From the NCBI RefSeq assembly GCF_011290685.1, contig NZ_JAANYN010000002.1, forward strand, positions 434,001 to 498,000: a DNA stretch of 64,000 nt, read 5' to 3'. This document shows, one piece after another, positions 10,318 to 64,000 of this stretch. A model generated the notes under the pieces. That model searched no databases and was not told where the DNA came from. It saw only the letters and a program-made list of their open reading frames with translations. The first letter of the stretch is position 1, and each line of letters starts with the position of its first letter. Made by a program: the position numbers and the translations under genes. This DNA is from Cyclobacterium plantarum (GTDB taxonomy: Bacteria > Bacteroidota > Bacteroidia > Cytophagales > Cyclobacteriaceae).

Positions 10318-10541
10318 AAGTCCTCCTCCTCATTTTGCATACCCGGATGCACCCTTGTACCAATATAGGTAAGGATGACCAAAAGTACGGTGATTACAAA
10401 ACTCGTCCATAAGCTGTAGGGAACACCTCCCAATTCAGGCTTGGAAACACCCTGAGGGATGACCAAAGGGGTGAATGTAATGATGCTGAGGATGATGGCC
10501 GCTACACAGCAAATCCTCCAGTAAAGTCTCTTTTTTTCCAT
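10314..10541 (-). CDS. Small two-helix membrane protein, symporter partner
   Basis: 75 residues from an ATG giving MEKKRLYWRICC; the longer open frame upstream lacks a sensible leader. Two hydrophobic helices (VAAIILSIITFTPLVI and VITVLLVILTYIGT) are separated by a short GVSKPELGGVPYSLWTS loop, followed by an acidic tail. Small subunits of this shape commonly precede SSS transporters, and the ATGA overlap with the symporter supports a joint complex. The exact family was not recognised. Confidence 0.75.
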   Translation of the reverse strand: MEKKRLYWRICCVAAIILSIITFTPLVIPQGVSKPELGGVPYSLWTSFVITVLLVILTYIGTRVHPGMQNEEEDL

Positions 10542-10618
10542 TAGTATTGGGTTTAAACGCTTTGAATTGACAATATACAATTGTTGTTGGAATATAAACA
10601 AAGATAGATGCATAAGCT

Positions 10619-10648
10619 CAAATGGCCGGGAAAAGTACCGGCCATTTG
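10619..10648 (-). promoter_or_regulatory. Intercistronic hairpin without a T-tract
   Basis: An 11-bp perfect stem CAAATGGCCGG/CCGGCCATTTG with an 8-base loop lies between the SDR gene and the transporter pair. On the minus strand it is not followed by a T-run, so it is more likely a stabilising or processing hairpin than a full terminator. Confidence 0.6.
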
Positions 10649-10662
10649 AATGTATGCCAAAA

Positions 10663-11433: not shown

Positions 11434-11445
11434 AATCAATTTAAA

Positions 11446-12588: not shown

Positions 12589-12604
12589 ACGTTAATTGGT
12601 TTTA

Positions 12605-13435
12605 CTAGCAATGGTAATAACTTTCAACAATTTTATCCAAAAATTCCTTTTGGTCTCCCGCCCAATGGCGGTCTGAAAAAATCTCAACTTCGTTATATCC
12701 GGAAAAACCGGCCTCCTCAGCCCATCCCCTTATCTTAGGAATGTCTATGCATCCTTCACCCATCAATCCCCGGTCATTCAAAAAATCCACCGTAGGACTG
12801 AGCCAGTCGCAGATGTGGAAAGCAAAAAGATTTCCTTTTTGCCCACACCTCAACAATTCAGTTTTGAGGTCAGGATCCCACCAAAGGTGATAGACATCGG
12901 CGGCAATGCCTGCATAATCAGAATCGATGTTTTCAGCCATTTCATTGGCTTGTCTCAGGGTATTAACGGCTGACCGGGTATCGGCATACATGGGGTGCAG
13001 GGGTTCTATGGCCAATTTCACCCCATTTGCCATGGCATGAGGCAAGACCTTTTCAATCCCTTCCTGGATTTGCATCCTGGATGTTTCCAGTGACTGATCC
13101 GGGTCAGCCCCACATACCAATACGATCATGGGAGCGCCTAGAGCCGCTGCCTCATCTACCGCCTTGAGATTATCCTGAATGGCCAAATCCCTGTTTTTAG
13201 CTGAAACCGAAGGAAAAAAGCCCCCTCTCACCAGGGAAACTATATCCAGACCATGGCTTCGTAGCCGATCACCTGCGGCAGAAATATCCCTGCCTCCCAG
13301 GTATTGCCGCCATACCGAAACCCCTTTGACACCCGCCTTTTCATAATTTTCAGCGGCCTCTTCCAGGCTCCAGGGTTTAGTGGTAATGGTATGGACACAA
13401 AGTTTACTCAGGTCTTTTATGGGTGCTGCACTCAT
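12605..13435 (-). CDS. Sugar phosphate isomerase/epimerase-like TIM-barrel protein
   Basis: 276 residues from the ATG that overlaps the preceding gene's stop by ATGA. The xylose-isomerase-like TIM barrel is recognisable from KLAIEPLHPMYADTRSAVNT, where Glu is a likely metal ligand, from AADVYHLWWDPDL with Asp and His ligands, and from YNEVEIFSDRHWAG at the C-terminus with another Glu ligand. Members isomerise or epimerise sugars or act on 3-keto-glycosides. Coupled translation with the GH88-like gene and adjacency to a Gfo/Idh/MocA gene place it early in the catabolic route. Confidence 0.85.
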   Translation of the reverse strand: MSAAPIKDLSKLCVHTITTKPWSLEEAAENYEKAGVKGVSVWRQYLGGRDISAAGDRLRSHGLDIVSLVRGGFFPSVSAKNRDLAIQDNLKAVDEAAALGAPMIVLVCGADPDQSLETSRMQIQEGIEKVLPHAMANGVKLAIEPLHPMYADTRSAVNTLRQANEMAENIDSDYAGIAADVYHLWWDPDLKTELLRCGQKGNLFAFHICDWLSPTVDFLNDRGLMGEGCIDIPKIRGWAEEAGFSGYNEVEIFSDRHWAGDQKEFLDKIVESYYHC

Positions 13436-14814
13436 GACAAACAATTGTAGAAGGTGTAATAAGGATCTTTATCGATAATGCGCTGAACATACAGGGCCAG
13501 TTCACGGGCGTGGTAATCCCCCCACATACTGGACTCGTTACAGGCAATTTTTTGGCCTTTCGGCACATTATCCCAACCATTTGGCTGGTGGTAGATGGAA
13601 TGGAGCAATATTCCCTGATGGTCTTTGTCTGTGCTCAGATAAGGCTCCTCAAGCAGGGTTTTGAGTACGGTCAAGCCAGCCTGCCAGTATTTGTTACCTT
13701 TTTCTGTTTGTCCCTTTCTTTGCAGATAATGGCCCAGACGCAACAGTCCCTGGGCCCCAATGGCTGCAGCGGTACTATCCACAGGCTCATGCTCGTTGAA
13801 AGGATCTGCGGGACGAGATAGGTAATCACCTAATTTATGTAATGCAGGAGCTCCGGTATCCCAGTAAGGCACCCCATCAGTAGGGGTATGCGCCAAATAA
13901 AAATCACAACTGGCGGTGGCAGCCTTTAACATAAATGCTTCTATTTCAACGGGGGAGCCATATGCTTTCAAGGCATCGTCAGAGAGATTATCCAGGTATT
14001 CCAATTCTTCAGCAAAGCCACACATGGCCCAGGCCAGTCCGCGTGTCCAGGTAGAAAAACCGGTATAGCCCTGTTGAGAATTGGGGCAGCGGTAATTGCC
14101 GTCATTGGTATTGAAAACACTTTCATGGGCCGTCCTTCCCCAGGTGTCGAAGCGATCCCTGCCCTCCCCGTAATAGACGGAGTAATCTGCGGTGGCTTTG
14201 GCATGTTGCAGCCCCCTGACCAACAAATTTACTTTTTTGTCATTCTCTTCCTGTAACACATGGCCCAAACTGTGGCTGAGCATCAAAATCCTTACGGTCC
14301 TGATGGTGTCAACAAATAATGAATGAGGACCGTTAAATGAATACATGAAACCCCCGTCCTTGATGTTTGTCCACCTACTTGCCTGGACAGCCCCTGAAAT
14401 CTTCAGGGCCAATTCATAAAAGTTTTTCTCCCACTCCACGTATGGAATCTTTTCCTCTACCATCAGGCGTAACAAATTGCCATAGGTGCTGACATTGTTA
14501 AAGCCATGGTCATGTACACCTGAGTGGCTGATGTGTGGGGCCATCAATTGCAGGGTTTTCATTTTTCCTTTGTCAAGGAAACCCTTTTCACCGGTAGCGT
14601 CAAACTGAAGTATAGAAGATCCAAACTGAAATCCCTGGGTCCATTCGGTCCATCCTCTGGTGGTATACTTTCCATTTACTGTAAAAACCGGTGAGCCCTG
14701 GTTTTGGGGATACTCCTTATCTATAGAAGTGATTTTTTCAGCCGAAAGCTGCCAAAATCTTTCCAGTCCCTTTTTCAGGTCAATGGGTTTAATTTCAGAA
14801 TCTATTGCTATCAT
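13432..14814 (-). CDS. GH88/GH105-like glycoside hydrolase (unsaturated uronyl hydrolase-like)
   Basis: About 460 residues from MIAIDSEIKP; no signal peptide, so the enzyme is cytoplasmic as is usual for GH88. The (alpha/alpha)6-barrel signature is visible in APHISHSGVHDHGFNNVSTYG, with an Asp between the two His, in FSTWTRGLAWAMCGFAEEL and in PVDSTAAAIGAQGLLRLG. Family members hydrate and open 4,5-unsaturated uronic acids left by polysaccharide lyases. It is the first gene of the minus-strand sugar operon, just downstream of the AraC gene. No lyase is seen in the window. Substrate specificity is not readable. Confidence 0.8.
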   Translation of the reverse strand: MIAIDSEIKPIDLKKGLERFWQLSAEKITSIDKEYPQNQGSPVFTVNGKYTTRGWTEWTQGFQFGSSILQFDATGEKGFLDKGKMKTLQLMAPHISHSGVHDHGFNNVSTYGNLLRLMVEEKIPYVEWEKNFYELALKISGAVQASRWTNIKDGGFMYSFNGPHSLFVDTIRTVRILMLSHSLGHVLQEENDKKVNLLVRGLQHAKATADYSVYYGEGRDRFDTWGRTAHESVFNTNDGNYRCPNSQQGYTGFSTWTRGLAWAMCGFAEELEYLDNLSDDALKAYGSPVEIEAFMLKAATASCDFYLAHTPTDGVPYWDTGAPALHKLGDYLSRPADPFNEHEPVDSTAAAIGAQGLLRLGHYLQRKGQTEKGNKYWQAGLTVLKTLLEEPYLSTDKDHQGILLHSIYHQPNGWDNVPKGQKIACNESSMWGDYHARELALYVQRIIDKDPYYTFYNCLS

Positions 14815-14965
14815 TTTTTTAAAGGGTTTACATTTGTTTGGAATAATCAACTTCAGAAAATAATTTCAGAATTTTAGTCTGAACACATGCCACTAAATCA
14901 TGTACTTTTTATTTATGAGGTTAAAGGTATCTTTAAACAGAGTCATTAAAAAGGTGTTTTTCGAT

Positions 14966-15862
14966 TTAATGCTGGTACTTTTCGTTTTCTATTCTTCTAA
15001 AATCAGAAGGGGAAAAACCCGTTTTCCTCTTAAATATCCTACTGAAATAAGAAGGGTCCTGATAATTCAATTGATAGGCAATTTGCTTATTGGACAAGTC
15101 GGTATAAATCAAGTATCTTTTTGCCTGAAGCATCAAGCGGTCAAGAATGATCTCTCCTGCCGTAAAACCGGTAATGTTCCTTACATGTTTATTCAAGTTG
15201 GCCGGTGACAGACCCATCAGGTTTGCGTAATCCTGAACCTGATGAACTTGGTTGAATCGCTGTTCAACCAGTGCATTAAACTGTTGAACCAATGAAAAAT
15301 GAGGATCCATGGTTTTATTTTGCTCTGCGAAATACCTCATATAATACTGTTTACACTTGATCAGGAATATCTGCAGGTAATTGCGTAGTATATCCGAGGT
15401 GAAACCATTCCATTGCAGGTATTCTTTGCGTATTTGTAGGATCAAAACCAAAAGCTCATTAAAATCTGCGGGATCCAGATTTAAAATCGGAATCAAAGTA
15501 GGATTGTTGAAAAAGGGCATTTGAAACAAAGGGTCCTCATGGTAGGCTTCCAGGGCATAAAAATCCCTGGAGAAAACCATCAGATAACCATGGTAATCAT
15601 TTTCTCTGCTGATGAGGTGAACCTGTCCGGGTGAAAGAAAATGTACACTATTGGAATGGATGACATGAGATTCAAAATCTATATCGTGCCTACCGGCCCC
15701 GTTAACAAAAACACACACTTCATAGTATCTGTGTCGATGAGGGCGGGTTGTTTCATGGGGGTAGGTTTTGCTTTGAATGGTCTTCCCCTGAACTTCATAA
15801 ATCTGAAATGCCCGCTGATTGGTAATCTCAGGCATCTCATAGGTTTTAATTGGCTCTCCCAT
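14966..15862 (-). CDS. AraC family transcriptional regulator
   Basis: 298 residues. The N-terminal ~150 residues form a cupin-like sensor domain (RHRYYEVCVFVNGAGRHDID, then SVHFLSPGQVHLI). The C-terminal ~100 residues hold two helix-turn-helix units: VQDYANLMGLSPANLNKHV and NKQIAYQLNYQDPSYFSRIF, ending KRKTGFSPSDFRR. The gene is co-oriented with and directly upstream of the GH88-like operon, so it is the likely local activator, responding to a sugar or sugar acid. No operator sites were identified. Confidence 0.88.
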   Translation of the reverse strand: MGEPIKTYEMPEITNQRAFQIYEVQGKTIQSKTYPHETTRPHRHRYYEVCVFVNGAGRHDIDFESHVIHSNSVHFLSPGQVHLISRENDYHGYLMVFSRDFYALEAYHEDPLFQMPFFNNPTLIPILNLDPADFNELLVLILQIRKEYLQWNGFTSDILRNYLQIFLIKCKQYYMRYFAEQNKTMDPHFSLVQQFNALVEQRFNQVHQVQDYANLMGLSPANLNKHVRNITGFTAGEIILDRLMLQAKRYLIYTDLSNKQIAYQLNYQDPSYFSRIFKRKTGFSPSDFRRIENEKYQH

Positions 15863-16153
15863 CAGGCATTGTTACTTTTTACGGCAAGTTAAGGAAAAAT
15901 TGAAAAGCAACCTTTTTTAAATTCCTTAATGGAGCGTGAATTTAAATATTCAAAATTTCCTTTTTTAAATTTTTACACGGATTCAATTAAAAATATGGTA
16001 TTTTTTTCAATTATTCATTAATATATTTTCAAAGTTAATCCAATTGTATTACCTTTGAAATATCAAACAAAGACAAAAGGTCTTCAATTTTGGTGAACAA
16101 AGGAAACCGGCAACATCTCCAGGCTCCTTAACTGTTACAAAATTGTTTCACAC

Positions 16154-52629: not shown

Positions 52630-53090
52630 TTTTCAATCCAGGAAAGAAGCTCTGCAATTTGAATACAAGTTGTGATTTTAGGGACTATGGTTCCCGAAAG
52701 ATACATCCAAATATTTTCTTTACTTTACCTTATAATTAACTATTCAATTATTTCAACCTAATTAGGATCATGGTGTATTCCCTATTCGCTTGCCAGGAGC
52801 TGGCAAAAAAACACATATTAAATGTATAAAATACATTTAATATGTGTTTTTTTGCCTATTTTACTAAAATTTAATTTTGATTATTCTTCGATTATGGAAT
52901 TTTATATTTTTTTTAATTTTTTCTAAAATATAAGTTTATTGGAGCCTTGTCCTTCCATTTCTTTTTGTTAAGTTTAAAAAATTATTACTAATTAAATACT
53001 TACTCAGTAGGGCAAATTGCCAAACAATATAGCTGCAGTCAGTTAATATAAACCCATAACGGAGTCTCTGAAGGTCATTGACTCCTTTTT
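52630..53090. other. A+T-rich intergenic region with several hairpins
   Basis: Contains two overlapping hairpins around 52790-52856 and a plus-strand terminator near 53061, described separately. The stretch 52860-53060 is very A+T-rich with no open frame; it may code for a small RNA ending at the terminator. Confidence 0.5.
52790..52856 (+). terminator. Long perfect hairpin with a competing upstream stem
   Basis: A perfect 26-bp inverted repeat (arms 52802-52827 and 52831-52856, 3-base loop AAA) has an A-run in the left arm and a T-run in the right arm, as in bidirectional terminators. A second 7-bp hairpin, TTGCCAG/CTGGCAA (52790-52796 with 52800-52806), shares part of the left arm, so the two cannot form together. 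Confidence 0.75.
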
Positions 53091-53092
53091 TT
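53061..53092 (+). terminator. Plus-strand terminator with no plus-strand gene
   Basis: Stem GGAGTC/GACTCC with a 13-base loop followed by seven T residues on the plus strand. The nearest plus-strand gene ends 430 bases upstream, and the gene beginning at its T-run is on the opposite strand. Confidence 0.65.
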
Positions 53093-53816
53093 ATTGCAGC
53101 AAGAAAGCTTCAAGAAGGTCTCCGACATAATATGCTACCAGAGCTGCGATAAAGCCTAAAGCAAGTGTCTCCAATACACTTTTAACGAGACCGGTTTGAT
53201 TGGCCCAGCTTTTCAGAGCGCCAACCACCAAAAAAGCCATGCCTGTGAGCAGACAGGTCCAGAAAAAGACATCAAATCTGCTGGTATAAAAATAATCCCA
53301 AACGTATACTGTAAGTGGAATAAAACCCACAGCAATAAATGAAATCAATGTTGCCAGTCCAATTTTCAGCGGGCTTTTATTTTCTTCCATCATATTGAGT
53401 TCGTCTTTCATCATTTCATTTACCCACCTGTCTTTGTCTGAAATGATCACATCAACCACTTGTTGAAGCAATTCTCCCTCAAATCCTTTTTCTCTGTAAA
53501 TTACTTCTATTTCTTCTCTTTCTTTCCCGGGCAAGTGTTCCACCTCCCAATATTCAATACTTTTGTGCTTCTGAAAATTTTCCTTGTCTGATTTGGAAGA
53601 AAGATAGGCGCCTATAGACATAGACAGCCCATCGGCAAAGAGATTGGCAAAACCCAAAATGATAATGACCAGGGGATCGAGACCGGCTCCCACTGCCCCG
53701 GCAACCACCGCAAAGGTCGTCACCGCCCCATCTATTCCTCCATATACGAACTCTCTGAGATATTCCTGGAAGCTCTTAAAAAATGGAATTTCCTGATGTA
53801 ATTCTGATTCTTTCAC
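53091..53816 (-). CDS. VIT1/CCC1 family iron/manganese transporter
   Basis: 241 residues starting from GTG (no nearby ATG gives a complete first helix). VIT family features are [25 protein letters not shown] in the first helix, [21 protein letters not shown] in the second, a soluble Glu/Met-rich metal-binding region around residues 85-145 ([32 protein letters not shown]), and three C-terminal helices. It would move Fe2+ or Mn2+ across the membrane. Stands alone, with a hairpin-rich region on its 3' side. Confidence 0.9.
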
Positions 53817-54180
53817 TATCTGATAATTTATTTTGAGAAAAATATAAGATGCTTTAAGATAGAAATTTTTTTTTAGAATGGAGACGAAAATAGGGTTAAA
53901 AATAGGTGATAAGAAGATTTTTAAAACAACATGTAGGTTTGGATAAATTCTTACTTTTCAAGGATAATCAGGTTTGGATTCAAAACTATTATACCAAAGG
54001 ACCTTAAATCTAAAATCAATCTCATTGAAAATGAAAGTAATAAAAACCTTCGGGATATTTTTTTCATCGTCCCCTTGTGAGAAAAAAAACAAAAACCTAC
54101 CTTTGCATCACTTCAAAAGAGAAGTACAAAAAAGAAAAAATTTAGAGTAGAAATTCAACCTTACAAATACCAAAAATAAT
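53817..54180. other. Intergenic region with the tRNA promoter
   Basis: A+T-rich, carrying the clear plus-strand promoter described separately. Nothing else is recognised between the VIT gene and the tRNA array. Confidence 0.5.
54075..54105 (+). promoter_or_regulatory. Bacteroidota consensus promoter for the tRNA-Asp locus
   Basis: TTG at 54075 and TACCTTTG at 54098-54105 with a 20-base spacer match the Bacteroidota housekeeping consensus exactly (TTG, 19-21 bases, TAnnTTTG). Start of transcription is expected near 54112, about 70 bases before the first tRNA remnant. Confidence 0.8.
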
Positions 54181-54386
54181 AGCTGGTACTTTTGCCTTTT
54201 CAGGCAAGTCCGGATGGTCAAAGGTTCGAATTTTGAAATATAAAATATTGGAGTGGTAGTTCAGCTGGTTAGAATGCCTGTCCCGACTCGTCGGGAAGGT
54301 CGCTGGTTCGAATTTTGAAATATAAAATATTGGAGTGGTAGTTCAGCTGGTTAGAATGCCTGCCTGTCACGCAGGAGGTCGCGGGT
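54181..54386 (+). repeat. 82-bp tandem array of tRNA-Asp-derived units
   Basis: Three units with an 82-base period. AGCTGGT occurs at 54181 and 54263 (and 54345); the joint GGTTCGAATTTTG occurs at 54223 and 54305. Unit 2 and unit 3 are identical for about 59 bases. Unit 1 is degraded, with only the D-arm and T-loop recognisable; unit 2 has lost its anticodon arm and 3' end; unit 3 leads into the intact tRNA-Asp. Confidence 0.8.
54250..54322 (+). pseudogene. Broken tRNA-Asp copy with a palindrome in place of the anticodon arm
   Basis: The 5' half (GGAGTGGTAGTTCAGCTGG, then TTAGAATGCC) is identical to the intact tRNA-Asp. The anticodon arm is replaced by the palindrome TCCCGACTCGTCGGGA, and the T-arm continues as TTCGAATTTTG, so the T-stem and acceptor 3' strands are missing. 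It cannot form a normal tRNA. Confidence 0.75.
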
Positions 54387-54405
54387 TCGAGTCCCGTCCA
54401 TTCCG
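54332..54405 (+). tRNA. tRNA-Asp (GUC)
   Basis: Acceptor GGAGTGG/CCATTCC (one G-T), D-arm GTTCAGCTGGTTAGAAT, anticodon stem CCTGC/GCAGG with loop CTGTCAC, giving GUC, T-arm CGGG-TTCGAGT-CCCG and discriminator G73. CCA is not encoded. All Asp identity elements visible by eye (G73, GUC, C38) are present. Confidence 0.95.
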
Positions 54406-54413
54406 CAGGAAGA

Positions 54414-54455
54414 AACCCTAATAGCTTAATTTACAAGCTGTTAGGGTTCTTCTTT
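54414..54455 (+). terminator. Terminator after tRNA-Asp
   Basis: Stem AACCCTAA-AGCTT against AAGCT-TTAGGGTT with one mismatch, followed by TCTTCTTTTT. It ends the tRNA-Asp transcript. Confidence 0.8.
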
Positions 54456-54806
54456 TTAAATGTGGGGCTAATTCTGGGGCTATTTGTAATTTTTTTCTCC
54501 GGATATGCCAAAGGTTTGAAATTCCAAGCCATTTAGTTTTACCTGAATTTTATTATCTTTTGGCTGGACAAAGTCATTGAGGATTTTAAGTCGAAATAAT
54601 TTTTTGGTCGAGTTATCAAATAAACATCAACCTCTCCCCTTCCCTTTTAAATTTAAATTACTAACTAAACACCACCTGGCACTTTTTGGGCAACACAACT
54701 TAAACCATTGATATTAAGTTAATTATTATAAATTTTTTCAACTAAAATACTTTTATTTTATCCACAAATTGATTAAATTAAGTTATCATTTTCAACTGTT
54801 GAGGCC
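54456..54806. other. Intergenic region, possible element scar
   Basis: Just after the tRNA terminator the octamer TGGGGCTA is repeated twice, 12 bases apart. A minus-strand open stretch of about 47 codons without a start (54480-54626) lies beside it. The rest is A+T-rich. No integrase or attachment core could be proven. Confidence 0.4.
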
Positions 54807-55037
54807 ATGAAATTCCTGATCAAACTTATCCTTGTGTCCTTTATTGGCACAATAGCCATGTTCGGTGCTTTGGGCAGCGAAAACGAATGGCCGGGTCTGA
54901 TAGTGGCCATTTCCGTGTGGGTCTGGTTTATTTATTCGCTTTCCAAACCAAAAGAACGGAACACTGATCAAACGATTAGGAAACTGGAGCGCAGAAACGA
55001 GGAACTTCTGAGGGAACTGGAACGAAGAGGTCACTGA
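54807..55037 (+). CDS. Small membrane protein with C-terminal coiled coil
   Basis: 76 residues. Two hydrophobic stretches (FLIKLILVSFIGTIAMFGAL and GLIVAISVWVWFIYSL) followed by a charged helical tail, TIRKLERRNEELLRELERRGH, with heptad Leu spacing. No family recognised. It is the first gene after the tRNA-Asp locus and probably accessory. Confidence 0.55.
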   Translation: MKFLIKLILVSFIGTIAMFGALGSENEWPGLIVAISVWVWFIYSLSKPKERNTDQTIRKLERRNEELLRELERRGH

Positions 55038-55081
55038 TCATATATAATTTTTCCTTCAATACCCCAAAAGCGGCAATACCA

Positions 55082-55321
55082 TCAAAGGTCCTGTTTCAAG
55101 CCCTCAATTTCCAATTCCTTGATATGCATACCAGCCAGGATCAAGTCGTCTCCTTCGATCGCTTGCAGGATTTTTTGAATCAGCTCATTTAACTTTTTAC
55201 CTTTTTCCAACCTTTCAAATGGAAAGGGATCCAGGTTCTGGTCTATCAGCTGGTTGATTTTCCGCTCAATCTGAACTTGCCGGTTTTTCAATTGCATTAC
55301 GATCAGGGAGATATCTTTCAT
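55082..55321 (-). CDS. Small helical hypothetical protein
   Basis: 79 residues from the ATG giving MKDISLIVMQLKNRQ (a TTG two codons upstream is also open). The protein is almost wholly helical and charged (RQVQIERKINQLIDQNL, LEKGKKLNELIQKILQAIEG) with no membrane segment. Not recognised. It resembles in size and style the 99-residue protein encoded at 59.8-60.1 kb, but no clear sequence identity was seen. Confidence 0.55.
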   Translation of the reverse strand: MKDISLIVMQLKNRQVQIERKINQLIDQNLDPFPFERLEKGKKLNELIQKILQAIEGDDLILAGMHIKELEIEGLKQDL

Positions 55322-55545
55322 TGTCAATTAAATTAACATATTACCGTTAATAAATTAGACAATTTTATAAATATACCTGCCTTAGGTTTTTACTTTTTTT
55401 TCCTTTTCTTTTCTCAAAAGCCCAAATTTTCAGAGAAAAGTAGTTTTATGGCTGATCCTTCCAAATTTGAATAAACGACGCTATCATCATGGATTGAGAT
55501 TTGACCCCTGTTCTTATCCAGATGGAAAACGATTCATTAACTATC

Positions 55546-57993
55546 CTATTCCGCCTTCAATGCCTTTACAGGATTCTCTCTGGTAGTACTTAAGATTCTG
55601 CCCATTACAGTGACCATGGCAATAACTAACATGATTGCCCCTGGCACCAAAAAAGCCGCAATACCTATATTAATTCTGAAAGCAAAGTTCTCCAGCCAGG
55701 AATTCCCCCAGAAGTAAATAACAGGAACTGTCAATATTACCGCCAACAAAAGAAGGTAAAGATATTCCCTGGTCAGCAATCCTATAAGGCTTCGGCTTGT
55801 AGCACCCAAAACCTTTCTAATACCTATTTCTTTTGTCTTCATGGAAGCTGAAAATGACACAAGTGCAAACAATCCTAAGCAAGCCATAAAAACGGCCAAT
55901 GACGAAAATGAGGTAAACAATTTTCCAAACTGCAGGTCTGCCTGATATTGCCTGTTGAACTCCTCATCCAGAAAAAAATAACTGAATGGGTCGCCGGGAA
56001 AAACCTTTTCATACGACTGTTTAAGGTGAGCAATTGTTCCCTGAATATCCGACTTGTTCATTCTTACAGAAAAGTAAACTCCGTAAGCATTGTCAAGAAT
56101 ATAAAAAGTTGGGGAGTAGGAATCTTTGAGGGAGTCCCAATGAAAATTTTTGACTACTCCAAGAATTTTGGTCTTGTAACTGAAAAATTCAACTTCTTGT
56201 CCCAAAGCAGCATCCGCAGAACCAAAATCCAAGGCTTCCAAAGCAGCTTCATTGATCAGTACATAGGTCCAATCCGGTATATTTTCAGGAATCTCTGTAT
56301 TAGCAATAAATTCCAATCCATAAGAAGGAATAAAATCCTTATCCATCAATACAAAATTACCCAATGCCAGGGTTTCATCGGGATCTGTAGATTTACGGAC
56401 CATACTTTCAAAAATGTACCCCTTACCAGGAACGGAGCTACTGCTGGTAACTGATGAAATGGAATGCTGCATCGTAGCCTGGTTTTTAAATGCCTGATAA
56501 TGTTCCGACAGGGTAGTGCCGTTTTCAATGACCGATTCAATGATCACCCGGGGCCCGTCAATGACAAGTATTTCCTCCACATCCATCCCAAGCTCCTGAT
56601 TCTTCATGTACAAAACCTGCTGATACACCAGATAGGTGCCGGCTATTAGCAATAGGGAAACGAAAAACTGAAACACGATCAGGCTCTTTCGAAGGCTCCA
56701 GTTACTTGTGGGATTGAAACCTCCGGTTTTTATCAGATTAACAGGTCGAAAAGAAGTCAGAACGAATGCCGGGTAAAGTCCGGAAAGTAAGGTTCCAATT
56801 CCAACCGTCAGGATGAAACCCACCCAAAAAATGGGGTCGGACAATAGCGTAAAGTAAATATTCTTCCCAACAAGTTCCTGAAGGACAGGCAGCAATACCG
56901 CTGAAAGGGCAAGTGCCAGTACAGCGGCAGTAAAATTGACCAAAACGGCTTCCAACATAAACTGGCTGATCAGTTGACCTTTATCCGCACCTATGGATTT
57001 TCTAATACCAACTTCCTTTGACCTCAACATGGCCTGGGAAGTGGTCAGGTTGACGTAATTTACCCATGCCATCAGCAGGATAAACGATGCCACAATCGCA
57101 AAAAACCACAAATGGCGCAGGTTGCCGTTATTGGTTTCAAAATCCCTGGTAAAATTGGAATATAAATGAATTTCAGTGAGTGGTTGCAATCCAATCTTCC
57201 ATTTTTCATTAAGTTTTTCCAATTCTTCACCCTTGTGCAGGGTGATGATATCTTCAAACTTTTCAACTGTTTCTATGGGATTAAAATGATCTTGAATTGA
57301 TACATAGGTGACAAAATCATCCCAGTCCCATCCCCCACCACTTTTGTATCTACCATATTTACTGATCAGAAAATCCAATGGAAAGAGAAAATCAAATTGT
57401 AAATGGGAATTTTCCAGTAGCGGCTCAAGGACGCCCGATACTACAAAACTTCCGCTCATAACCCCACCGCTTGTTTCAAGGGTTTTCCCTACCGGATTAT
57501 TATCCCCAAAATATTTAACCGCCATCCGCTCCGTAATCACTATACCATGTTTTTCTTGAAATACTGAGACTTTGTCCCCGTATTTTAATGGGTAATGAAA
57601 CAAATCTAAAAATCCGGGATCCACAAACAAAAGCCTGTCCTCCTGATGAGAAAGCTGATCATCCGGATTGATCACCACCAGACTCAAATCAAGGAAATTA
57701 ACCCTGACCAAATCTTCGATTTCAGGAAGATTGGTTTTGGCTTCGGCCCCAAGTCCGTTCGTTGTAAAAGGACTATACGAAATAATTTCTCCCCGTTTAT
57801 TGATGGTTTGGGTCAACCGATAAATCTGTTCCGAATTAGGATGAAAGCGGTCATAACTCAATTCAAAATGGATGTATTGAAAAATTAGCAAGCATACCCC
57901 CATTCCCACTGCCAGGCCAAGAATATTAATGGTAGAAAAAACTTTGTTACTCATCAAATTTCTGTAGGCAATTTTAAGGTAATTCTTCCACAT
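55546..57993 (-). CDS. FtsX/MacB-type ABC transporter permease
   Basis: 815 residues. The N-terminus MWKNYLKIAYRNLMSNKVFS leads into the first helix with INILGLAVGMGVCLLIF. A periplasmic MacB-PCD domain spans about 50-280, then three helices around 290-420 with SQAMLRSKEVGIRKSIGA, a second periplasmic region at about 450-680, and a final FtsX domain with FSASMKTKEIGIRKVLGATS. This duplicated-FtsX layout is typical of Bacteroidota permeases that work with a separate ATPase. No ATPase gene is seen here. Probable role is mechanotransmission or export; cargo unknown. Confidence 0.92.
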   Translation of the reverse strand: MWKNYLKIAYRNLMSNKVFSTINILGLAVGMGVCLLIFQYIHFELSYDRFHPNSEQIYRLTQTINKRGEIISYSPFTTNGLGAEAKTNLPEIEDLVRVNFLDLSLVVINPDDQLSHQEDRLLFVDPGFLDLFHYPLKYGDKVSVFQEKHGIVITERMAVKYFGDNNPVGKTLETSGGVMSGSFVVSGVLEPLLENSHLQFDFLFPLDFLISKYGRYKSGGGWDWDDFVTYVSIQDHFNPIETVEKFEDIITLHKGEELEKLNEKWKIGLQPLTEIHLYSNFTRDFETNNGNLRHLWFFAIVASFILLMAWVNYVNLTTSQAMLRSKEVGIRKSIGADKGQLISQFMLEAVLVNFTAAVLALALSAVLLPVLQELVGKNIYFTLLSDPIFWVGFILTVGIGTLLSGLYPAFVLTSFRPVNLIKTGGFNPTSNWSLRKSLIVFQFFVSLLLIAGTYLVYQQVLYMKNQELGMDVEEILVIDGPRVIIESVIENGTTLSEHYQAFKNQATMQHSISSVTSSSSVPGKGYIFESMVRKSTDPDETLALGNFVLMDKDFIPSYGLEFIANTEIPENIPDWTYVLINEAALEALDFGSADAALGQEVEFFSYKTKILGVVKNFHWDSLKDSYSPTFYILDNAYGVYFSVRMNKSDIQGTIAHLKQSYEKVFPGDPFSYFFLDEEFNRQYQADLQFGKLFTSFSSLAVFMACLGLFALVSFSASMKTKEIGIRKVLGATSRSLIGLLTREYLYLLLLAVILTVPVIYFWGNSWLENFAFRINIGIAAFLVPGAIMLVIAMVTVMGRILSTTRENPVKALKAE

Positions 57994-58194
57994 GTGATCT
58001 TATTTAGTTGCTGGTTTATTTCTTTTTTCTGAAAAACTCTCTGCCCCAAACACCTTATCTAACGGGTTTCCATTGAGCGACTTTCATGCCAGCTGTAATC
58101 TTTGTATAACCTAAAAAAAGTACCTTTCTCCCAATTTATGTAAATTATTTCGAACAAAATTGCCCGTAAGCGGTCAATTCTTGAAGAGCAACAA

Positions 58195-58214
58195 AAAAGC
58201 CCCTAAGGGCTTTT
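58195..58214 (-). terminator. Terminator after the 85-residue protein gene
   Basis: Stem AAAAGCCC/GGGCTTTT with a 4-base loop, followed on the minus strand by T residues. It lies two bases after the stop of the minus-strand gene. Confidence 0.8.
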
Positions 58215-58216
58215 CT

Positions 58217-58474
58217 CTAAGGTTTCGATTTCCTGGCCTTCCCCCCTTTCGGAGCAGCTACCTTTTTGCTGATATAGGCCGTATGGGTTTTTCCAAACTG
58301 GTCTGGCTCTTTTAAGGAGGCGACTTCAAATACCAGGTATTCTTTGCCATCATAGTCTACCATGTGGTCTTTTAGGATTTCCTCCAGTGTTTCTTTGGAG
58401 ATGGATAACCTAATGATGTTGAGGTCCTTTACCTGGGTTCCTTTTCCGATGTAAGTTTTTTCGAATTGTGACAT
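58217..58474 (-). CDS. Small conserved Bacteroidota protein, accessory
   Basis: 85 residues: MSQFEKTYIGKGTQVKDLNI, then IIRLSISKETLEEILKDH, a conserved-looking YLVFEVASLKEPDQFGKTHTAYIS, and a basic Lys/Arg-rich tail (PKGGKARKSKP). The compact alpha/beta pattern with basic end could bind nucleic acid. From memory, proteins of this look occur on Bacteroidota mobile elements; this is unverified. Has its own terminator. Confidence 0.65.
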   Translation of the reverse strand: MSQFEKTYIGKGTQVKDLNIIRLSISKETLEEILKDHMVDYDGKEYLVFEVASLKEPDQFGKTHTAYISKKVAAPKGGKARKSKP

Positions 58475-58911
58475 GACTTTTACTGTTTAAGGTTTGAAAT
58501 TTGATTATGCCCAAGAGAACGGGGGCTGCCAGGGGCACCCAAGCCAAGGGCCGGGCAAAAAAATTGCGGAAGGCTTCCCCCGGAAAACCCAATTTTTTTT
58601 TGATCGGGCGAAGCGTACCCTTGGCGGGTGGACCGCTGCCCTCATCTTTGCATGGATCATAATTCACAACCGGAAACAGGATAGGCCATGGCTTTGGAAA
58701 GGCTGGATTAAAAAGGAATCAAGTAATGGCCCTTAACAATAGGGGATTATCCAGCTAATGAAAACAGGGAATTTTAGGAACTACCTGGACGAACGGCTAT
58801 TAAAGATTCTGAATTTGAAGTTACCACGGAAAGCATGAATAGGCGAAAAAGGAAAAAACCTTCCAGCTTATCCAGAAAAACTGACTGAAATTACATAGAA
58901 GCCTAATTTTT
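58475..58911. other. Non-coding region with a G+C-rich structured block
   Basis: The part from about 58510 to 58640 is locally G+C-rich with A- and T-runs and partial inverted repeats (AAGCC with GGCTT, CCGGG with CCCGG), unlike its neighbours. Open frames across it in both directions look like chance. The rest shows nothing. Confidence 0.45.
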
Positions 58912-59586
58912 CTATTCCGAAACCGGATCCAGAATTCCAGGGTGATTGTTGCCAGGTTTGTTGACCTCCTTGGATATTTCATATGCCTCCATGGAATCAG
59001 CAGGATAAGCGTTCATCAATTTTAGCAAATCCTTGGGGTTTTGATCGGGATCCAACCATAATTTTTCTTCTTCCTTGGTCAAAATCACTGGCATTCTGTC
59101 ATGGATTTTTTCCATCAGTTTATTCGAGGAGGTGGTGATGATAGCATATGAATTATATATTTCGCCCTCAGGATCCTTCCAACTTGACCAGAGCCCAGCG
59201 AAAAAAAAGACCTCCCGATCAGGAAGGTAAATCCGGAAGGGCTGTTTTTCCTTGCCCTCCTTTTTCCACTCAAAAAAACTGTCAGCCAGGACCAGGCACC
59301 TTTTATTGTTTACCACCAAGGGTTTATAGGAGGGTTTTTCAAGCAGGGTTTCTGACCGGGCATTGATCATTTTATAGCCAACCTTTTTGTCCTTAGCCCA
59401 ATGGGGCACCAAACCGAAATGAAAGACATCGATCTGCTCAGGTTCATCAGAAGTGACCACCGGAGCCAATTGAGAAGGAGCAATATTGAAAGAAGGCTTC
59501 CAGTTTTTGGCCTTTTCGGACAACCTTAACTTCAATTGATCTTCAACTATCTTAAGGTCTTGTTTTTCGGAGTATCTGCCGCACAT
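58912..59586 (-). CDS. SOS response-associated peptidase (SRAP, YedK/HMCES-like)
   Basis: 224 residues from the second of two consecutive Met codons, so that Cys2 in MCGRYSE is exposed after Met removal, as the family requires. Other active-site residues visible: Asn in INARSETLLEKPSY, Glu in ADSFFEWKK, and His in KIHDRMPVIL. SRAP proteins bind abasic sites in single-stranded DNA and form a covalent link through Cys2. This copy lies in the accessory region rather than near core repair genes. Confidence 0.92.
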   Translation of the reverse strand: MCGRYSEKQDLKIVEDQLKLRLSEKAKNWKPSFNIAPSQLAPVVTSDEPEQIDVFHFGLVPHWAKDKKVGYKMINARSETLLEKPSYKPLVVNNKRCLVLADSFFEWKKEGKEKQPFRIYLPDREVFFFAGLWSSWKDPEGEIYNSYAIITTSSNKLMEKIHDRMPVILTKEEEKLWLDPDQNPKDLLKLMNAYPADSMEAYEISKEVNKPGNNHPGILDPVSE

Positions 59587-59784
59587 CATTTCCTTTTTAT
59601 GGTAAGTATTAAATTTACGAATAAATTAGCCGGGTTTTTATTATACCTTCGGGTAATTGGATTAGGGATAATAATGGAAATCCTTTTTTTGCAAGGAAAG
59701 TGCGATAGGAAAAAGATTGGAATGAAAACGAAGTGGTAGCCCGACCCGAAGGGTAAGCCCGAAAATATTTAACTTCAATTCAGG

Positions 59785-60084
59785 TTATCCCCTAAGCTTT
59801 TCTTTTAGGTTTTTATAACATTCTATTGCCAATGGCTTGAGCTCTTCCTCGGAACGTGAAATAGGAAATTCCAGGCTCCGATGCATTGCAGCCATATAGG
59901 TGGCCGAAAATTCATCCATTGCGTCATCCGCAACCCCCATCAACCTTTGAATCAGATCCATAATACCCAAATAATGACAGTACCCGGCATCCAAGTTCAA
60001 CCTGTCCAGACCCAAAATCAACTGATTGTGTTTTAGGTCCTGAATGATCAACTCAATAATCAATTCGTCCAAAGTCATATTCAT
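59785..60084 (-). CDS. Helical hypothetical protein
   Basis: 99 residues (start could be two codons later). Mostly helical: LDELIIELIIQDLKHNQLILGLDRLNLDAGYCHYLGIMDLIQRLMG, then ADDAMDEFSATYMAAMHRSL and a charged end EEELKPLAIECYKNLKEKL. No signal peptide. Not recognised. It precedes the SRAP gene on the same strand, about 200 bases away, in the accessory zone. Confidence 0.6.
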   Translation of the reverse strand: MNMTLDELIIELIIQDLKHNQLILGLDRLNLDAGYCHYLGIMDLIQRLMGVADDAMDEFSATYMAAMHRSLEFPISRSEEELKPLAIECYKNLKEKLRG

Positions 60085-60357
60085 CTTAACATATAGGTTT
60101 TCGGTTAAATGGAGGCCACTCTCTATTTGCTGTCAACTTTGTTGCAGCCTTACAAAATTCAATAATCGATGCCCCCTACCCTATTCTGATAAGGCATATA
60201 TTATTTTCTAAACATGAACAAGTGCTGGAGGAAAAAAGACGAAATCCCGGCCGAACCCAGATGCTCACCAGCATAAATTATCCTCCCTACGGATATTTTA
60301 TTTAAAAATCCATCACTACCTTATAGCCAATTCTAAGGAAATGGTTAATTTTGATCA

Positions 60358-60777
60358 ATGACAGATAGTAACAACAGGCCGGGAAAAATCCACCTGGACC
60401 GCAATATCAAGAGGTTCAGGGAAATGCTGGGCATCAAGCAGGAAGCCCTGGCCCATGAGCTGGGTGCTGACTGGTCCCAAAAGAAAATCTCCTTGCTGGA
60501 GCAAAAGGAAACAGTAGAAGATGCCATCCTGGCCCAAGTTTCCGAAATCCTGAAAATTCCCGTGGAAGCCATTCAAAATTTTGATGAGGAGCAGGCGATT
60601 ACAGTAATTTCAAGCACTTTCAACGATAATTCAGCTGTAGTGTACAATAATCCAGTATTTAATCCGATGGATAAAATTATCAAACTACATGAAGAGAAAA
60701 TTGCACTTTATGAACGTATGTTGAAGGAGAAGGATGAAATGATGGTGAGATTGGAGCGGTTGTTGGAGGGGAAATAG
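60358..60777 (+). CDS. XRE-type helix-turn-helix regulator
   Basis: 139 residues. The HTH lies at about 13-65: LDRNIKRFREMLGIKQEALAHELGADWSQKKISLLEQKETVEDAILAQVSEIL, with the typical Gln-Glu-Ala-Leu-Ala turn. After it comes a linker and a C-terminal coiled coil, KIIKLHEEKIALYERMLKEKDEMMVRLERLLEGK, likely for dimerisation. It is the plus-strand gene before the DUF4007-ATPase pair and may regulate it, although 363 bases lie between. Confidence 0.85.
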   Translation: MTDSNNRPGKIHLDRNIKRFREMLGIKQEALAHELGADWSQKKISLLEQKETVEDAILAQVSEILKIPVEAIQNFDEEQAITVISSTFNDNSAVVYNNPVFNPMDKIIKLHEEKIALYERMLKEKDEMMVRLERLLEGK

Positions 60778-61140
60778 AGTGAAGCTAAAAATTTCATAAC
60801 TTAAAAGGATTCATGAGTTCACCTAATTTCGAATTACACCTATTTTTATAAAGGGTGGCAGAATTAAGCTTTTAAGGATTGACCACAAATATCATTTTAA
60901 AAAAGTGGAATGATTATATTTTTATTTCACTCCATCCAAAAATGGAGATTCCTTCCAAAAAAATCTTTAGCAAGTTAACTTTTTTCTTTTCAGATACTTT
61001 AATCCAGAAAAAAGACAAAAACGGAAAAGCTGAATCGTCCCCACAATTGAAGGTTAGATTAATAAGTAAGGCCCAATTTCCTCAAAAATCAGCAATAATT
61101 TGGTTACTTTGTAGCATAAAATAATTTTCCACACAAAGAG
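60778..61140. other. A+T-rich leader region of the DUF4007 operon
   Basis: Markedly A+T-rich. A TTACTTTG box at 61104-61111 is one mismatch from the Bacteroidota -7 element, but no matching TTG lies at the right distance. A short purine-rich AAAGAG lies just before the DUF4007 start. An 81-codon frame here begins with TTG and looks like chance. Confidence 0.4.
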
Positions 61141-62052
61141 ATGATTTTAGAAAGTACAGAAATCACAAAATTTACCTTCTCTGGCCACGATTCTTTCCAT
61201 TGCCGACAACTATGGCTGAAAAAAGGGTATGATTTTGTTCAAGAAGGGAATAATTTTAATGACGAAGATTCAGTTGTACAGCTTGGAGTTGGGAAAAATA
61301 TGGTTTCATCCATTCGTTTTTGGCTGAAGGCTTTCAACATTATTGACAACAAAGACATTCCAACTGAATTTGGCAAACGACTATTTGATGACAATAATGG
61401 CTATGACCCATTTTTGGAGGATGAAGCAAGTCTTTGGCTTTTGCATTATCAATTAGTGAAAAATGGTTTTGCTTCTATTTACTCCATCATTTTCAACGAA
61501 TTCAGAAAAGAGAAACTTTTCTTTAACAAAGAAACCTTTGTGAACTATGTGAAGAGAATTGGCGAAAGCAATCCCGATTTGAATTTCAATGAAAATACGG
61601 TTGCTAAAGATTTTATCGTTTTTACAAACCTTTATAAAAGTGACTCTGAAAGTAATGATGTTGAGGATAGCTTTTCTGGAATTTTATCAGAATTAGGTTT
61701 GCTAAAACTCATATACAAATCTTTTAAAGACGAAAACGGAAAAACAAAAAAGAAAGAAGAGTACTTTATTGAAACCTCAGAAAGAGACAATCTTCCTGAG
61801 TCAATCGTTTTATATGCAATACTTGACAATCCAAATTACGGAAACTCAATCAGTTTAAATTCTTTAGAATTCGATTGGAATAGTCCGGGTTCAATATTCG
61901 CCTTAAATCGTTCGGGTTTGATGAATAAAATCTCTGATATAGTTGATGATTTCAAAGACATCACTTTTACTGACCAAGCAGGGATAAAAGAGTTGCAATT
62001 CAAGACAAAATCAGACGCATACACAATTTTAGATAATTACTATGGCAAATAA
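61141..62052 (+). CDS. DUF4007 family protein
   Basis: 303 residues. The N-terminal motif FTFSGHDSFHCRQLWLKKGYDF and the VVQLGVGKNMVSSIRFWLKAF segment are those of DUF4007; the middle shows PFLEDEASLWLLHYQLV and the C-terminus FTDQAGIKELQFK. No signal or membrane segment; cytoplasmic. From memory, DUF4007 genes tend to be neighbours of PAPS-reductase-like enzymes and large ATPases in DNA-modification or defence islands; that is not visible within this window. The gene is A+T-rich relative to the core genes and overlaps the ATPase start by 11 bases, so they form one transcript. Confidence 0.87.
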   Translation: MILESTEITKFTFSGHDSFHCRQLWLKKGYDFVQEGNNFNDEDSVVQLGVGKNMVSSIRFWLKAFNIIDNKDIPTEFGKRLFDDNNGYDPFLEDEASLWLLHYQLVKNGFASIYSIIFNEFRKEKLFFNKETFVNYVKRIGESNPDLNFNENTVAKDFIVFTNLYKSDSESNDVEDSFSGILSELGLLKLIYKSFKDENGKTKKKEEYFIETSERDNLPESIVLYAILDNPNYGNSISLNSLEFDWNSPGSIFALNRSGLMNKISDIVDDFKDITFTDQAGIKELQFKTKSDAYTILDNYYGK

Positions 62053-64000
62053 TTTCACAACATCGGTAAATATTATCAGGGACACTGATAGGGATTTCAA
62101 CTACATCCCAACACCTAATGCTAGACAAGTTGTTAGCCAAATAGTTAATGACTTTAAAAAAGGCATTCGCTCTTTTAGTGTGGTTGGTACTTATGGTACA
62201 GGAAAATCTTCTTTCCTATTAGCATTTGAGCAGAGCATCAAAGGAACAAAACGATATTTTGAACCTAATTTCTTAATAAATCCAAAGTACGATTTTGCAA
62301 AAATTGTTGGCTCATACGCTTCTATTGTAGAACAATTTGCAGATGCTTTTGAGGTTCAAACAAACAAGAATCAACAAGAAAATATTCTTTCAGAAATATT
62401 TAATCGTTATCATTCCATTGGAAAGGAGAACAAAATTTTATTTATTCTGATTGACGAATTTGGTAAGTTTTTGGAGTACGCAAGTAAACACAATCCTGAA
62501 AAAGAACTTTATTTTGTTCAGCAATTGGCAGAGTTTTGTAATAATCCAAAGCACAATATTGTTTTAATTACCACTGTTCACCAAAGTTTGGAATCGTATG
62601 CTTATTCACTAAGCAAAACGCAACAGCAAGAATGGACTAAGGTAAAAGGTCGTTTTCGTGAAATTACTTTTAACGAACCTGTTGAACAGCTTTTGTTTTT
62701 AGCTTCGGAATATGTTGCTGAGAATTTTGAAACCAAGACTTCAAAATCAGAAATTGAAAAATGTTTGAAACTTACAACTGAAACGAAAGCCTTCAACTTC
62801 AATAAAGATTTCCTTAAAGAAATTGCTTCAAAGCTATATCCGCTTGATATTCTTTCTGCCAATATTCTCACGTTATCATTGCAACGATACGGGCAAAATG
62901 AACGTTCATTGTTTTCATTTCTTGAATCATCAGACCATACAGGTTTGGCGAAATTCAACAAACAGGAAAATCCGTTTTACAATCTGTCAAATGTTTACGA
63001 TTACCTCAATTTCAATTTCTATTCCTTTTTAACCTCAAAATACAACCCCGATTTTTCTGCTTGGAGCTCGATTCGTTCTTCAATAGAAGAAGTGGAAAGA
63101 GCATTTGACTCAAATATCAATGGTTACATCAAAGCGGTAAAAACGATTGGACTTTTGAATATCTTCTCAGCAAGTGGTTCAATCTTGGATTTGAATTTCT
63201 TTGTTGATTATTTGAAAACTGCTTGTGGAGTTTCAGATGCCAATGATATTATAAAAAATCTTGAAGCCAAGAATATTATCCGCTATCGTTCCCATTCAAA
63301 ACGATTTATTCTTTTTGAAGGAACAGATTTAGACATTCAAACTGCATTGATTGAAGCGGGAAATAAAATTTCGGAAGTGGTTGATATTACAACTCTTCTG
63401 AATAAACATATTCAATTTAATCCAGTTTTTGCCAAACAATATTCCTTTGCAACAGGAACTCCGAGATATTTTGAATTTATTATTTCAGACTATCCCGAAA
63501 CCAAAAAAATTCCAGAAGGTGAAATTGATGGCATTGTAAATCTTGTTTTTAATAGCAAGCTGAAAGAAAGCGATATTCAAAATAAATCGAAATTACAGGA
63601 GGAAGCCATTATTTATTGTTTTTTTAAAAATTCGGCTGAGATAAAGAACTTGTTATTTGAAATCGAAAAAATTAAAAAGGTTCTTGAAGAAAACAAGGAT
63701 GATAAAGTAGCTAAAAGAGAATTGGAAAATATTGTTGAGTCTCAAACCCGATTACTCAATCACTATATAACTGACAGTATTTACTCAGGGAGTAAAGAAG
63801 TAAAATGGTTTTTCAATGGAGAGGAAAAGAACGTTGCTGATAAAAAGGACTTCAACAAATTGCTTTCTCAGGTTTGTAGCCTGGTATATGATGCCACACC
63901 TATTTTCAAAAATGAATTGGTAAACAAACATAAAATATCTTCTTCTATCCATACGGCTAAACGCAATTATTTTAAAGCATTAGCCAATGATTGGGATAAA
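62042..64000 (+). CDS. Large P-loop ATPase (C-terminus outside the window)
   Basis: 653 codons are present and the frame is open to the window edge. Walker A is GTYGTGKSS (Lys55), Walker B is LFILIDEFGKFLEY with Asp138-Glu139, and a sensor-like motif HNIVLITTVHQSLESY follows near 175. The region after ~230 is helical, with a winged-helix-like part around 360-430 (LNFFVDYLKTACG, ILFEGTDLDIQTALIEAG) and a long charged coiled coil near 535-580. The overlap with DUF4007 couples translation. It resembles the BrxC/PglY class of defence ATPases in outline only; that identity is not established. Incomplete. Confidence 0.8.
   Translation, partial: MANNFTTSVNIIRDTDRDFNYIPTPNARQVVSQIVNDFKKGIRSFSVVGTYGTGKSSFLLAFEQSIKGTKRYFEPNFLINPKYDFAKIVGSYASIVEQFADAFEVQTNKNQQENILSEIFNRYHSIGKENKILFILIDEFGKFLEYASKHNPEKELYFVQQLAEFCNNPKHNIVLITTVHQSLESYAYSLSKTQQQEWTKVKGRFREITFNEPVEQLLFLASEYVAENFETKTSKSEIEKCLKLTTETKAFNFNKDFLKEIASKLYPLDILSANILTLSLQRYGQNERSLFSFLESSDHTGLAKFNKQENPFYNLSNVYDYLNFNFYSFLTSKYNPDFSAWSSIRSSIEEVERAFDSNINGYIKAVKTIGLLNIFSASGSILDLNFFVDYLKTACGVSDANDIIKNLEAKNIIRYRSHSKRFILFEGTDLDIQTALIEAGNKISEVVDITTLLNKHIQFNPVFAKQYSFATGTPRYFEFIISDYPETKKIPEGEIDGIVNLVFNSKLKESDIQNKSKLQEEAIIYCFFKNSAEIKNLLFEIEKIKKVLEENKDDKVAKRELENIVESQTRLLNHYITDSIYSGSKEVKWFFNGEEKNVADKKDFNKLLSQVCSLVYDATPIFKNELVNKHKISSSIHTAKRNYFKALANDWDK

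Follow-up and report, generated by a model that had tools for sequence, protein, structure and literature searches.

The window analyzed here is a stretch of 64,000 nucleotides from Cyclobacterium plantarum (assembly GCF_011290685.1, contig NZ_JAANYN010000002.1, positions 434,001 to 498,000). At its right end begins an operon (61141-76320) that is probably an Ssp-type DNA phosphorothioation operon with two separate effector modules. Its Ssp and Pbe parts are of known kinds, here combined as Ssp-Pbe. The remaining three genes, orfA, orfB, and orfC (the trio), are tentatively proposed as one of these modules, a new one. The operon is composed of eleven consecutive open reading frames (ORFs), all on the plus strand and separated by -11 to +25 bases, in the order sspB-sspC-sspD-orfA-orfB-orfC-sspA-pbeA-pbeB-pbeC-pbeD.

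61141-62052, plus strand: sspB (DUF4007), 303 residues; PADLOC SspB PDLC02760 399.7 bits, Pfam PF13182 259.1 bits
62042-65263, plus strand: sspC, large BrxC-related ATPase, 1073 residues; PADLOC SspC PDLC02776 1734.9 bits
65260-66363, plus strand: sspD (3'-phosphoadenosine 5'-phosphosulfate (PAPS) reductase); PADLOC SspD 313.9 bits
66367-68016, plus strand: orfA, 549 residues
68024-69136, plus strand: orfB, 370 residues
69142-70035, plus strand: orfC, 297 residues
70061-71209, plus strand: sspA (cysteine desulfurase); PADLOC SspA 557.9 bits
71202-73406, plus strand: pbeA; PADLOC PDLC02706 1116.8 bits
73417-73647, plus strand: pbeB, 76 residues; named by size, order, and conservation
73644-75794, plus strand: pbeC, 716 residues; PADLOC PbeC 53.6 bits
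75796-76320, plus strand: pbeD, 174 residues; named by size, order, and conservation

The window contains sspB and the first 653 of the 1073 sspC codons, and the rest of the operon lies to its right. Coordinates above 64000 are given in the window frame (the L002 coordinate plus 56000). The right flank was taken from contig positions 490001-550000, with ORFs listed to 530000, in a genome of 6.17 Mb. None of the eleven frames is interrupted, and in the seven proteins inspected for motifs the expected ones are present. Profile scans (PADLOC, Pfam, and NCBIfam) covered ten ORFs: the gene of an XRE-type regulator upstream of the operon, then sspB to pbeC without pbeB. Promoter and terminator scans gave results at chance level.

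The modification half is recognized by SspB, SspC, SspD, and a cysteine desulfurase occurring together, on one strand and in one operon. The initial annotation of the window had described an XRE regulator, a DUF4007 gene, and a large ATPase on the same strand as the start of a defence or DNA-modification cassette. All three ORFs are present on the plus strand, the last two overlapping by 11 bases as described, and the DUF4007 protein and the ATPase are identified as SspB and SspC; their profile scores (399.7 and 1734.9 bits in PADLOC, with 259.1 bits for DUF4007 in Pfam) exclude chance. SspC carries the Walker A motif GTYGTGKS with K55 and the Walker B pair D138-E139, both intact as annotated. 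G49, G52, G54, K55, D138, and E139 are invariant across 15 aligned SspC proteins. The sspA product matches the SspA and DndA profiles about equally (557.9 and 553.9 bits). Within the phosphorothioation machinery, SspB is predicted to recognize (and nick) the DNA. The published Ssp systems consulted place the phosphorothioate (PT) at a specific motif, 5'-CCA-3'. Part of one survey proposes that in Ssp the triple-winged-helix SspB and the Orc/Cdc6-clade ring ATPase SspC jointly scan DNA (PMC10853773).

Extending the contig to the right, as the initial annotation had advised, gave the eleven-gene Ssp operon reaching 76320. Several of the deciding genes expected there are indeed present, namely a PAPS reductase (SspD), a helicase of the phospholipase D (PLD) type (PbeA), and a nuclease candidate (OrfC), with SspA in addition; PglZ found no match in the ten ORFs. 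The annotation had also left a choice between a phosphorothioation-like and a type 4 BREX-like locus. Type 4 BREX shares DUF4007, BrxC/SspC, and a PAPS reductase with Ssp, according to passages of PMC12839542, and SspB and SspD have weak BrxP matches (19 and 30 bits). Against this, neither PglZ nor BrxL matched any of the ten ORFs, a search confined to the locus and made without the rest of the genome. SspC scores 1735 bits as SspC versus 229 bits as BrxC, and DUF4007 and the PAPS reductase are separate genes. A type 4 BREX locus is thus rejected as exceedingly improbable, and the phosphorothioation half of the choice stands.

PbeABCD is a known PT-linked restriction module and is probably effector module 2 of this operon. 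PbeA has the HxK motif of PLD-type nucleases together with Walker motifs and is a superfamily 2 helicase. Its Pfam PLDc_2 match is under threshold (13.7 versus 27 bits), as is its match to the NCBIfam phosphorothioation restriction enzyme TIGR04095 (399 bits, threshold 600). PbeC matches the PADLOC PbeC profile over residues 1-279, with LmuB scoring slightly better (57.5 bits), and has CKVC, a possible Cys hook, at residue 360. The PADLOC profile match of PbeD is weak (E 0.085), and PbeB matches no PbeB profile in PADLOC. Among the loci of 52 relatives, phmmer found a PbeB-like ORF in 12 and a PbeD-like ORF in 16. The archaeal DndCDEA-PbeABCD system, a CxC ABC-ATPase system, likewise has a PLD-helicase PbeA and a small PbeB-sized ORF in the same order, as well as a coiled-coil ABC-type ATPase and a DndE-sized last gene (sizes and description from parts of PMC6459918 and PMC10853773). 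Here, by contrast, the module is joined to Ssp rather than Dnd modification genes, and its PbeC and PbeD match their profiles weakly and PbeB not at all.

Apart from weak or generic matches, PADLOC, Pfam, and NCBIfam offer no name for OrfA, OrfB, or OrfC; in PADLOC, OrfC was scanned as the window-genome protein and OrfA and OrfB as families. The OrfA family matches two unrelated PADLOC effector models, each in 2 of 23 members. Pfam gives no consistent picture for OrfA, where the best-represented family, a winged-helix model, reaches no more than 3 of 23 members, or for OrfC, where 1 of 27 members matches each of 25 listed families (of 29), two PIN models included. Profiles of all three proteins gave only matches taken for chance against the sequences of solved structures.

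Predicted structures of OrfA and OrfC, and profile matches and motifs of OrfB, suggest more specific roles for the trio. OrfA is a predicted DNA-reading protein, OrfB a predicted ATP-driven motor, and OrfC a predicted nuclease. For the OrfA and OrfC models Foldseek returned no hit at E 0.001 or below, and PIN proteins and FokI top its lists; the fold assignments come from a second look, a re-alignment restricted to Foldseek's own candidates. In these models OrfC has a predicted PIN fold with four invariant acidic residues, as in PIN nucleases, and among its nearest solved folds are those of VapC toxins and of PIN proteins that process RNA. OrfA is modeled as a multi-winged-helix reader sharing the fold of FokI and SspB. 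Compared with SspB and the recognition domains of FokI, Nt.BspD6I, and BpuJI, OrfA has no recognized nuclease domain and no detectable sequence similarity to SspB, and it has an extra, variable N-terminal part that is putatively alpha/beta. Across 23 OrfA sequences, residues 1-180 have a mean pairwise identity of 22%, and the winged-helix parts one of 38-42%. Between the window genome and locus L006, the nearest full cassette, the first part of OrfA is 46% identical and the rest 95-98%. This pattern fits exchange of the N-terminus, as in specificity or sensor domains.

OrfB has weak but repeated matches to BrxD, the BREX ATPase: 19 of 25 members match PADLOC BrxD, 17 of 25 NCBIfam BrxD, and 21 of 25 Pfam BrxC_BrxD (the last at E 0.01 or below). 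It differs from BrxD in lying far under the NCBIfam threshold (the L006 copy scores 19.8 versus 350 bits), and of other BREX proteins the ten ORFs show no PglZ and, for BrxH, a single 17-bit helicase-domain match in PbeA. Invariant in the 25 members are G58, YGSGKTH (60-66), WIDEFEDI (215-222), N253, and R332. The profile matches and the Walker A, Walker B, and sensor motifs (the sensor roles of the conserved residues being our assumption) place OrfB among putative BrxD/Orc-Cdc6-like AAA+ ATPases.

The trio also recalls SspFGH, the effector module of another Ssp system, in having three genes beside sspBCD and one clear Walker-A protein (as parts of PMC8092258 describe SspFGH). SspABCD-SspE and SspABCD-SspFGH share sspA-D with this operon, including the DUF4007 reader and the PAPS reductase; the effectors differ, being OrfA-B-C and PbeABCD here, with no SspE, SspF, or SspG match in the ten ORFs. 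The search for SspE covered these ten and 14 further ORFs, most of them from relatives. SspF and SspG profiles match neither the window-genome OrfA, OrfB, and OrfC nor the OrfA and OrfB families, though the two best of them in PADLOC give genuine SspF and SspG proteins 405-691 bits. Alignment with hhalign gave 0.1% and 1.6%, no FtsK/SpoIIIE Pfam match occurs among the ten ORFs, and OrfC has a predicted PIN fold. A strongly diverged SspFGH module is therefore very improbable, and this identity of the trio was rejected.

The trio is separable from the genes around it. In cassette numbering, base 724 lies 60 bases before sspB and base 6006 is the end of sspD (L002 10363). L006 aligns at 80.6% over cassette bases 724-15938, stopping 25 bases short of the pbeD end. 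In L062 (genome G296) identity is 82.7% for sspBCD and 78.8% for sspA-pbe, with the matched pieces ending at cassette bases 6006 and 9716, the latter 12 bases into sspA. In place of the trio, which is exactly missing there, L062 has a stretch of about 1 kb containing two small ORFs (L062 10543-11591); read by eye, we take these to resemble a nucleoside deoxyribosyltransferase and a membrane protein. The slot between sspD and sspA may be an effector exchange site.

Sequence divergence is consistent with the same division. Pairwise-distance matrices correlate at 0.90-0.97 within SspA-D (10-22 loci per pair), at 0.89-0.92 within OrfA-B-C (23-25 loci), and at 0.47-0.75 between SspA-D and the trio. 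The observed values were reached in 0 of 999 label permutations for these pairs, except for OrfB-SspA (17) and OrfC-SspA (5). The correlation of PbeA with SspA is 0.56, reached by 71 of 999 permutations. Since the test leaves shared ancestry in, it is informative mainly through the contrast between blocks. By this contrast OrfA-B-C appears to co-evolve as a block of its own.

Quite improbably, the trio belongs to the modification half, as an alternative target reader or a regulator of SspBCD, and the sole effector is PbeABCD, SspE, or another gene. Its position between sspD and sspA, with sspD upstream at every evaluable locus, would suit such a role, as would the presence of PbeA or SspE in 17 of the 26 trio loci described below. 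L062, whose DNA is 79-83% identical on either side of the slot, lacks the trio, and the trio is found in 0 of 20 Ssp loci sampled from the phylum (E 0.001). The separate co-evolution block also argues against this role, and sulfur transfer would not require a PIN protein whose active-site acids are intact.

The distribution of the trio was taken from a genome-collection scan with one OrfB sequence, which recovers near relatives only and gave 26 loci. Of these relatives, 24 carry names that we take to be those of Bacteroidota. OrfC is encoded immediately 3' of orfB in 26/26 loci. OrfA lies 5' of orfB in 23/26; L027 and L031 are contig starts, and orfB is truncated in L029. SspD is encoded upstream of the trio in all 22 evaluable loci (22/26 overall), the four outside this set being L029 and the contig-start loci L009, L027, and L031. 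The sspD and orfA genes are adjacent in 21/22, with 1.3 kb containing an opposite-strand ORF between them in L030. OrfB found no match in the plasmid collection. Weak matches to the orfB profile in G369, G152, and G446 were set aside, as profiles found no Ssp gene there. In L029, a transposase-like ORF (8645-10540, named by eye) stands directly before the truncated orfB.

PT effectors profiled in the flanks were PbeA, PbeC, SspF, SspG, SspH, and a helicase-ATPase-PLD set. Ten trio loci lack PbeA. L010 ends about 1 kb past orfC, L013 has SspE (968.5 bits) directly after orfC, and the eight others are without a profiled PT effector. Two further ORFs were scanned among these eight: the one right after orfC in L026 has PtuA-like matches, and the one in L028 has none.

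SspC occurs in 22 of the 395 genomes sampled from the phylum. Neither orfA, orfB, nor orfC was found at E 0.001 in 20 other Ssp loci (20 of 21, G387 being left out, with some stretches cut by contig ends). The effectors of these 20 are PbeA in 6, the helicase-ATPase-PLD set in 6 (as in the Hymenobacter plasmid L034), and a clear SspFGH in 1; 7 are without those effectors save weak matches in L077 and L080, with SspE outside the profile set. The trio is rare but tied to sspBCD where present. No recognized description of it was found among papers listed from the open literature, subscription papers, preprints, and supplements (including that of PMC10853773) lying outside this scope.

Because OrfA and OrfB appear to be of the same protein kinds as SspB and SspC, and OrfC is nuclease-like, the trio is proposed to supply the cutting activity, pairing with the marking by SspB-C-D. 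In the marking half, SspB would read a DNA site and SspC would act as a ring ATPase. SspA would supply sulfur via SspD, and a backbone oxygen would be replaced on one strand of the cell's own DNA. In the cutting half, OrfA, with its winged helices and fast-changing N-terminal domain, would recognize a DNA site or a feature of the invader. OrfB, the BrxD-like AAA+ protein, would be loaded at the OrfA site, and OrfC would be licensed to cut where the PT mark is absent. The trio would thus be effector module 1 and would repeat the SspB-C-D plan of reader, ring ATPase, and enzyme, the enzyme being a nuclease rather than one for sulfur transfer. The analysis shows the genes and their order, the open frames and motifs, the predicted folds, and the modularity; from these we infer the PT chemistry in the strain, the formation of the complexes, the licensing by PT status, and the target of OrfC.

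Under this proposal, which is somewhat tentative, OrfA-B-C is a new type of PT-linked restriction module. A swappable, hypervariable OrfA N-terminus would set the trigger, and the module would be a fixed-slot cassette, used alone or stacked with PbeABCD or SspE. Related designs occur elsewhere. Orc/Cdc6 ATPases are paired with nucleases of the restriction endonuclease fold and DndG-like proteins with triple winged helix-turn-helix domains in other mobile loci, as described in part of PMC10853773. These are the same three protein kinds as in the trio. Compared by that text description, such neighborhoods differ in their restriction endonuclease-fold nucleases and in often having HerA/FtsK, whereas the trio has a predicted PIN protein and is tied to sspBCD. 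They support the design of the trio by analogy, not its identity.

Several observations weigh against the proposal. Prokaryotic PIN proteins are mostly RNases. PbeA is present in 16 of the 26 trio loci, and SspE in one more (L013), so the trio could be a helper. The trio is rare, with OrfA in 1 of the 395 phylum genomes, and of the 3 genomes among the 395 that the OrfB profile matched, two have the match in a different context. L029, counted as not evaluable, has a truncated orfB and no Ssp gene in 10 kb upstream. PbeA and PbeC, an expected block, correlate at only 0.54, no better than proteins across blocks. The matches of OrfB to known families are weak: the window-genome protein scores 22.4 bits against a threshold of 22.2, and the L006 copy falls below it at 18.6. 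Finally, hhalign finds no convincing homology between OrfA and SspB (1.6%) or between OrfB and SspC (20.8%), which leaves folds and gene order as the basis of the mirrored design.

The RNase activity of most prokaryotic PIN proteins makes a suicide-RNase role possible for OrfC. OrfA-B-C would then be a back-up suicide device, in which the reader and the ATPase sense a block of the PT machinery or phage replication, and the PIN protein cuts RNA, like the VapC-type PIN toxins, and kills or stalls the cell. The VapC toxins and RNA-processing proteins among the nearest folds of OrfC agree with such a device, and a survey noted PIN genes in the vicinity of Dnd systems, suggesting them as suicide effectors (PMC10853773, in part). 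The same passages place such effectors mostly at system borders; here the PIN gene is inside the operon and beside orfB in 26/26 loci. It also co-evolves with orfA and orfB (r 0.89-0.92), and OrfA has a predicted DNA reader of the restriction-enzyme type. A suicide device is possible but unlikely.

A restriction role for the trio would bear on two features of PT systems. They mark a small part of the available sites (part of PMC8053081), and how their effectors discriminate self from foreign DNA is unsettled (part of PMC8092258). A 2025 review lists, in the part consulted, three PT restriction branches: DndFGH with SspFGH, SspE, and PbeABCD (PMC12707154). If the proposal is true, the trio is a fourth branch, compact, of three genes, with separate reader, motor, and nuclease, and small enough to purify. 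It would allow asking whether the reader shares the SspB site and what the sulfur mark does to the cut, block it or license it. A PIN protein within an Ssp operon is unusual. L062, without the trio and with flanks of about 80% DNA identity, and L006, with the trio and at 80.6%, permit clean comparisons.

The left border of the cassette was located from these relatives and from congeners. Two features of the host flank are concerned.

54332-54406: tRNA-Asp
60358-60777, plus strand: XRE-type regulator ORF, 139 residues; conserved left neighbor, outside the cassette

The stretch running from the XRE gene through PbeC has a GC content of 33.0%, versus 41.4% in window positions 1-60000, in agreement with the A+T-rich block noted earlier. 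The XRE gene is part of the host flank, since it is complete in congener G400 (84.9% identity over 58976-60777), which has no SspC; to this extent the annotated cassette start was misplaced. It aligns partially in congeners G402 and G405, where an ORF of the XRE kind is open. SspC was not found in G400, G402, or G405, and among 12 genomes of the genus it occurs in 1, the window genome itself. Six related cassettes were compared at this border, L062 being unusable where its contig ends too soon; 0 of the 5 with enough upstream DNA align over the XRE gene (pieces of more than 250 columns). The XRE gene was accordingly rejected as a member of the operon. In the two nearest cassettes alignment begins after it, at about 61056 (L062) and 61081 (L006), and this is where the foreign block starts.

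The initial annotation had placed the start of an accessory region at tRNA-Asp. G405 aligns piecewise on both sides of the tRNA gene and across it (52859-54390, 54223-55361, and 58193-60597), and an island border at tRNA-Asp is unsupported. Within this region, an 815-residue permease-like gene (55546-57993) lies inside the stretch 55361-58193 that is missing from G405, with both sides aligning.

The conserved XRE gene looks like the marker of a defence hot spot, because three congeners carry other genes past it, and these differ and are defence-like by sequence. In G402 a 1285-residue TmtA-type protein (1325 bits) is encoded there. G400 has a gene with Orf5, HEC-06, and SspE-type matches (at most 64 bits), and the ORFs around it, read by eye, presumably are type I restriction genes. 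In G405 we take the ORFs, again by eye, to be PIN-like and XRE-like.

Other Ssp loci contain further gene sets of note. A recurring set beside sspBCD is made up of a helicase (PbeA-like, 98 bits), an ATPase (MzaB-like, 60 bits), and a PLD-family protein, as in L034 (13975-18363). The set also occurs in L063, L064, L065, L068, L074, L079, and L039, with the arrangement of the Hymenobacter and Trichormus plasmids, and it looks like a split Pbe-type module. Four Ssp loci without a recognized effector have ORFs of 807-817 residues near sspD (L066 6675-9095, L071 6053-8503, L072 5222-7672, and L077 10537-12987). These have no PADLOC match at E 1e-5 and may encode an additional effector. To the right of the C. 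plantarum cassette lie two near-identical RadC-like genes, named by eye (L003 3880-4533 and 11978-12508), about 8 kb apart, the second of which is truncated.

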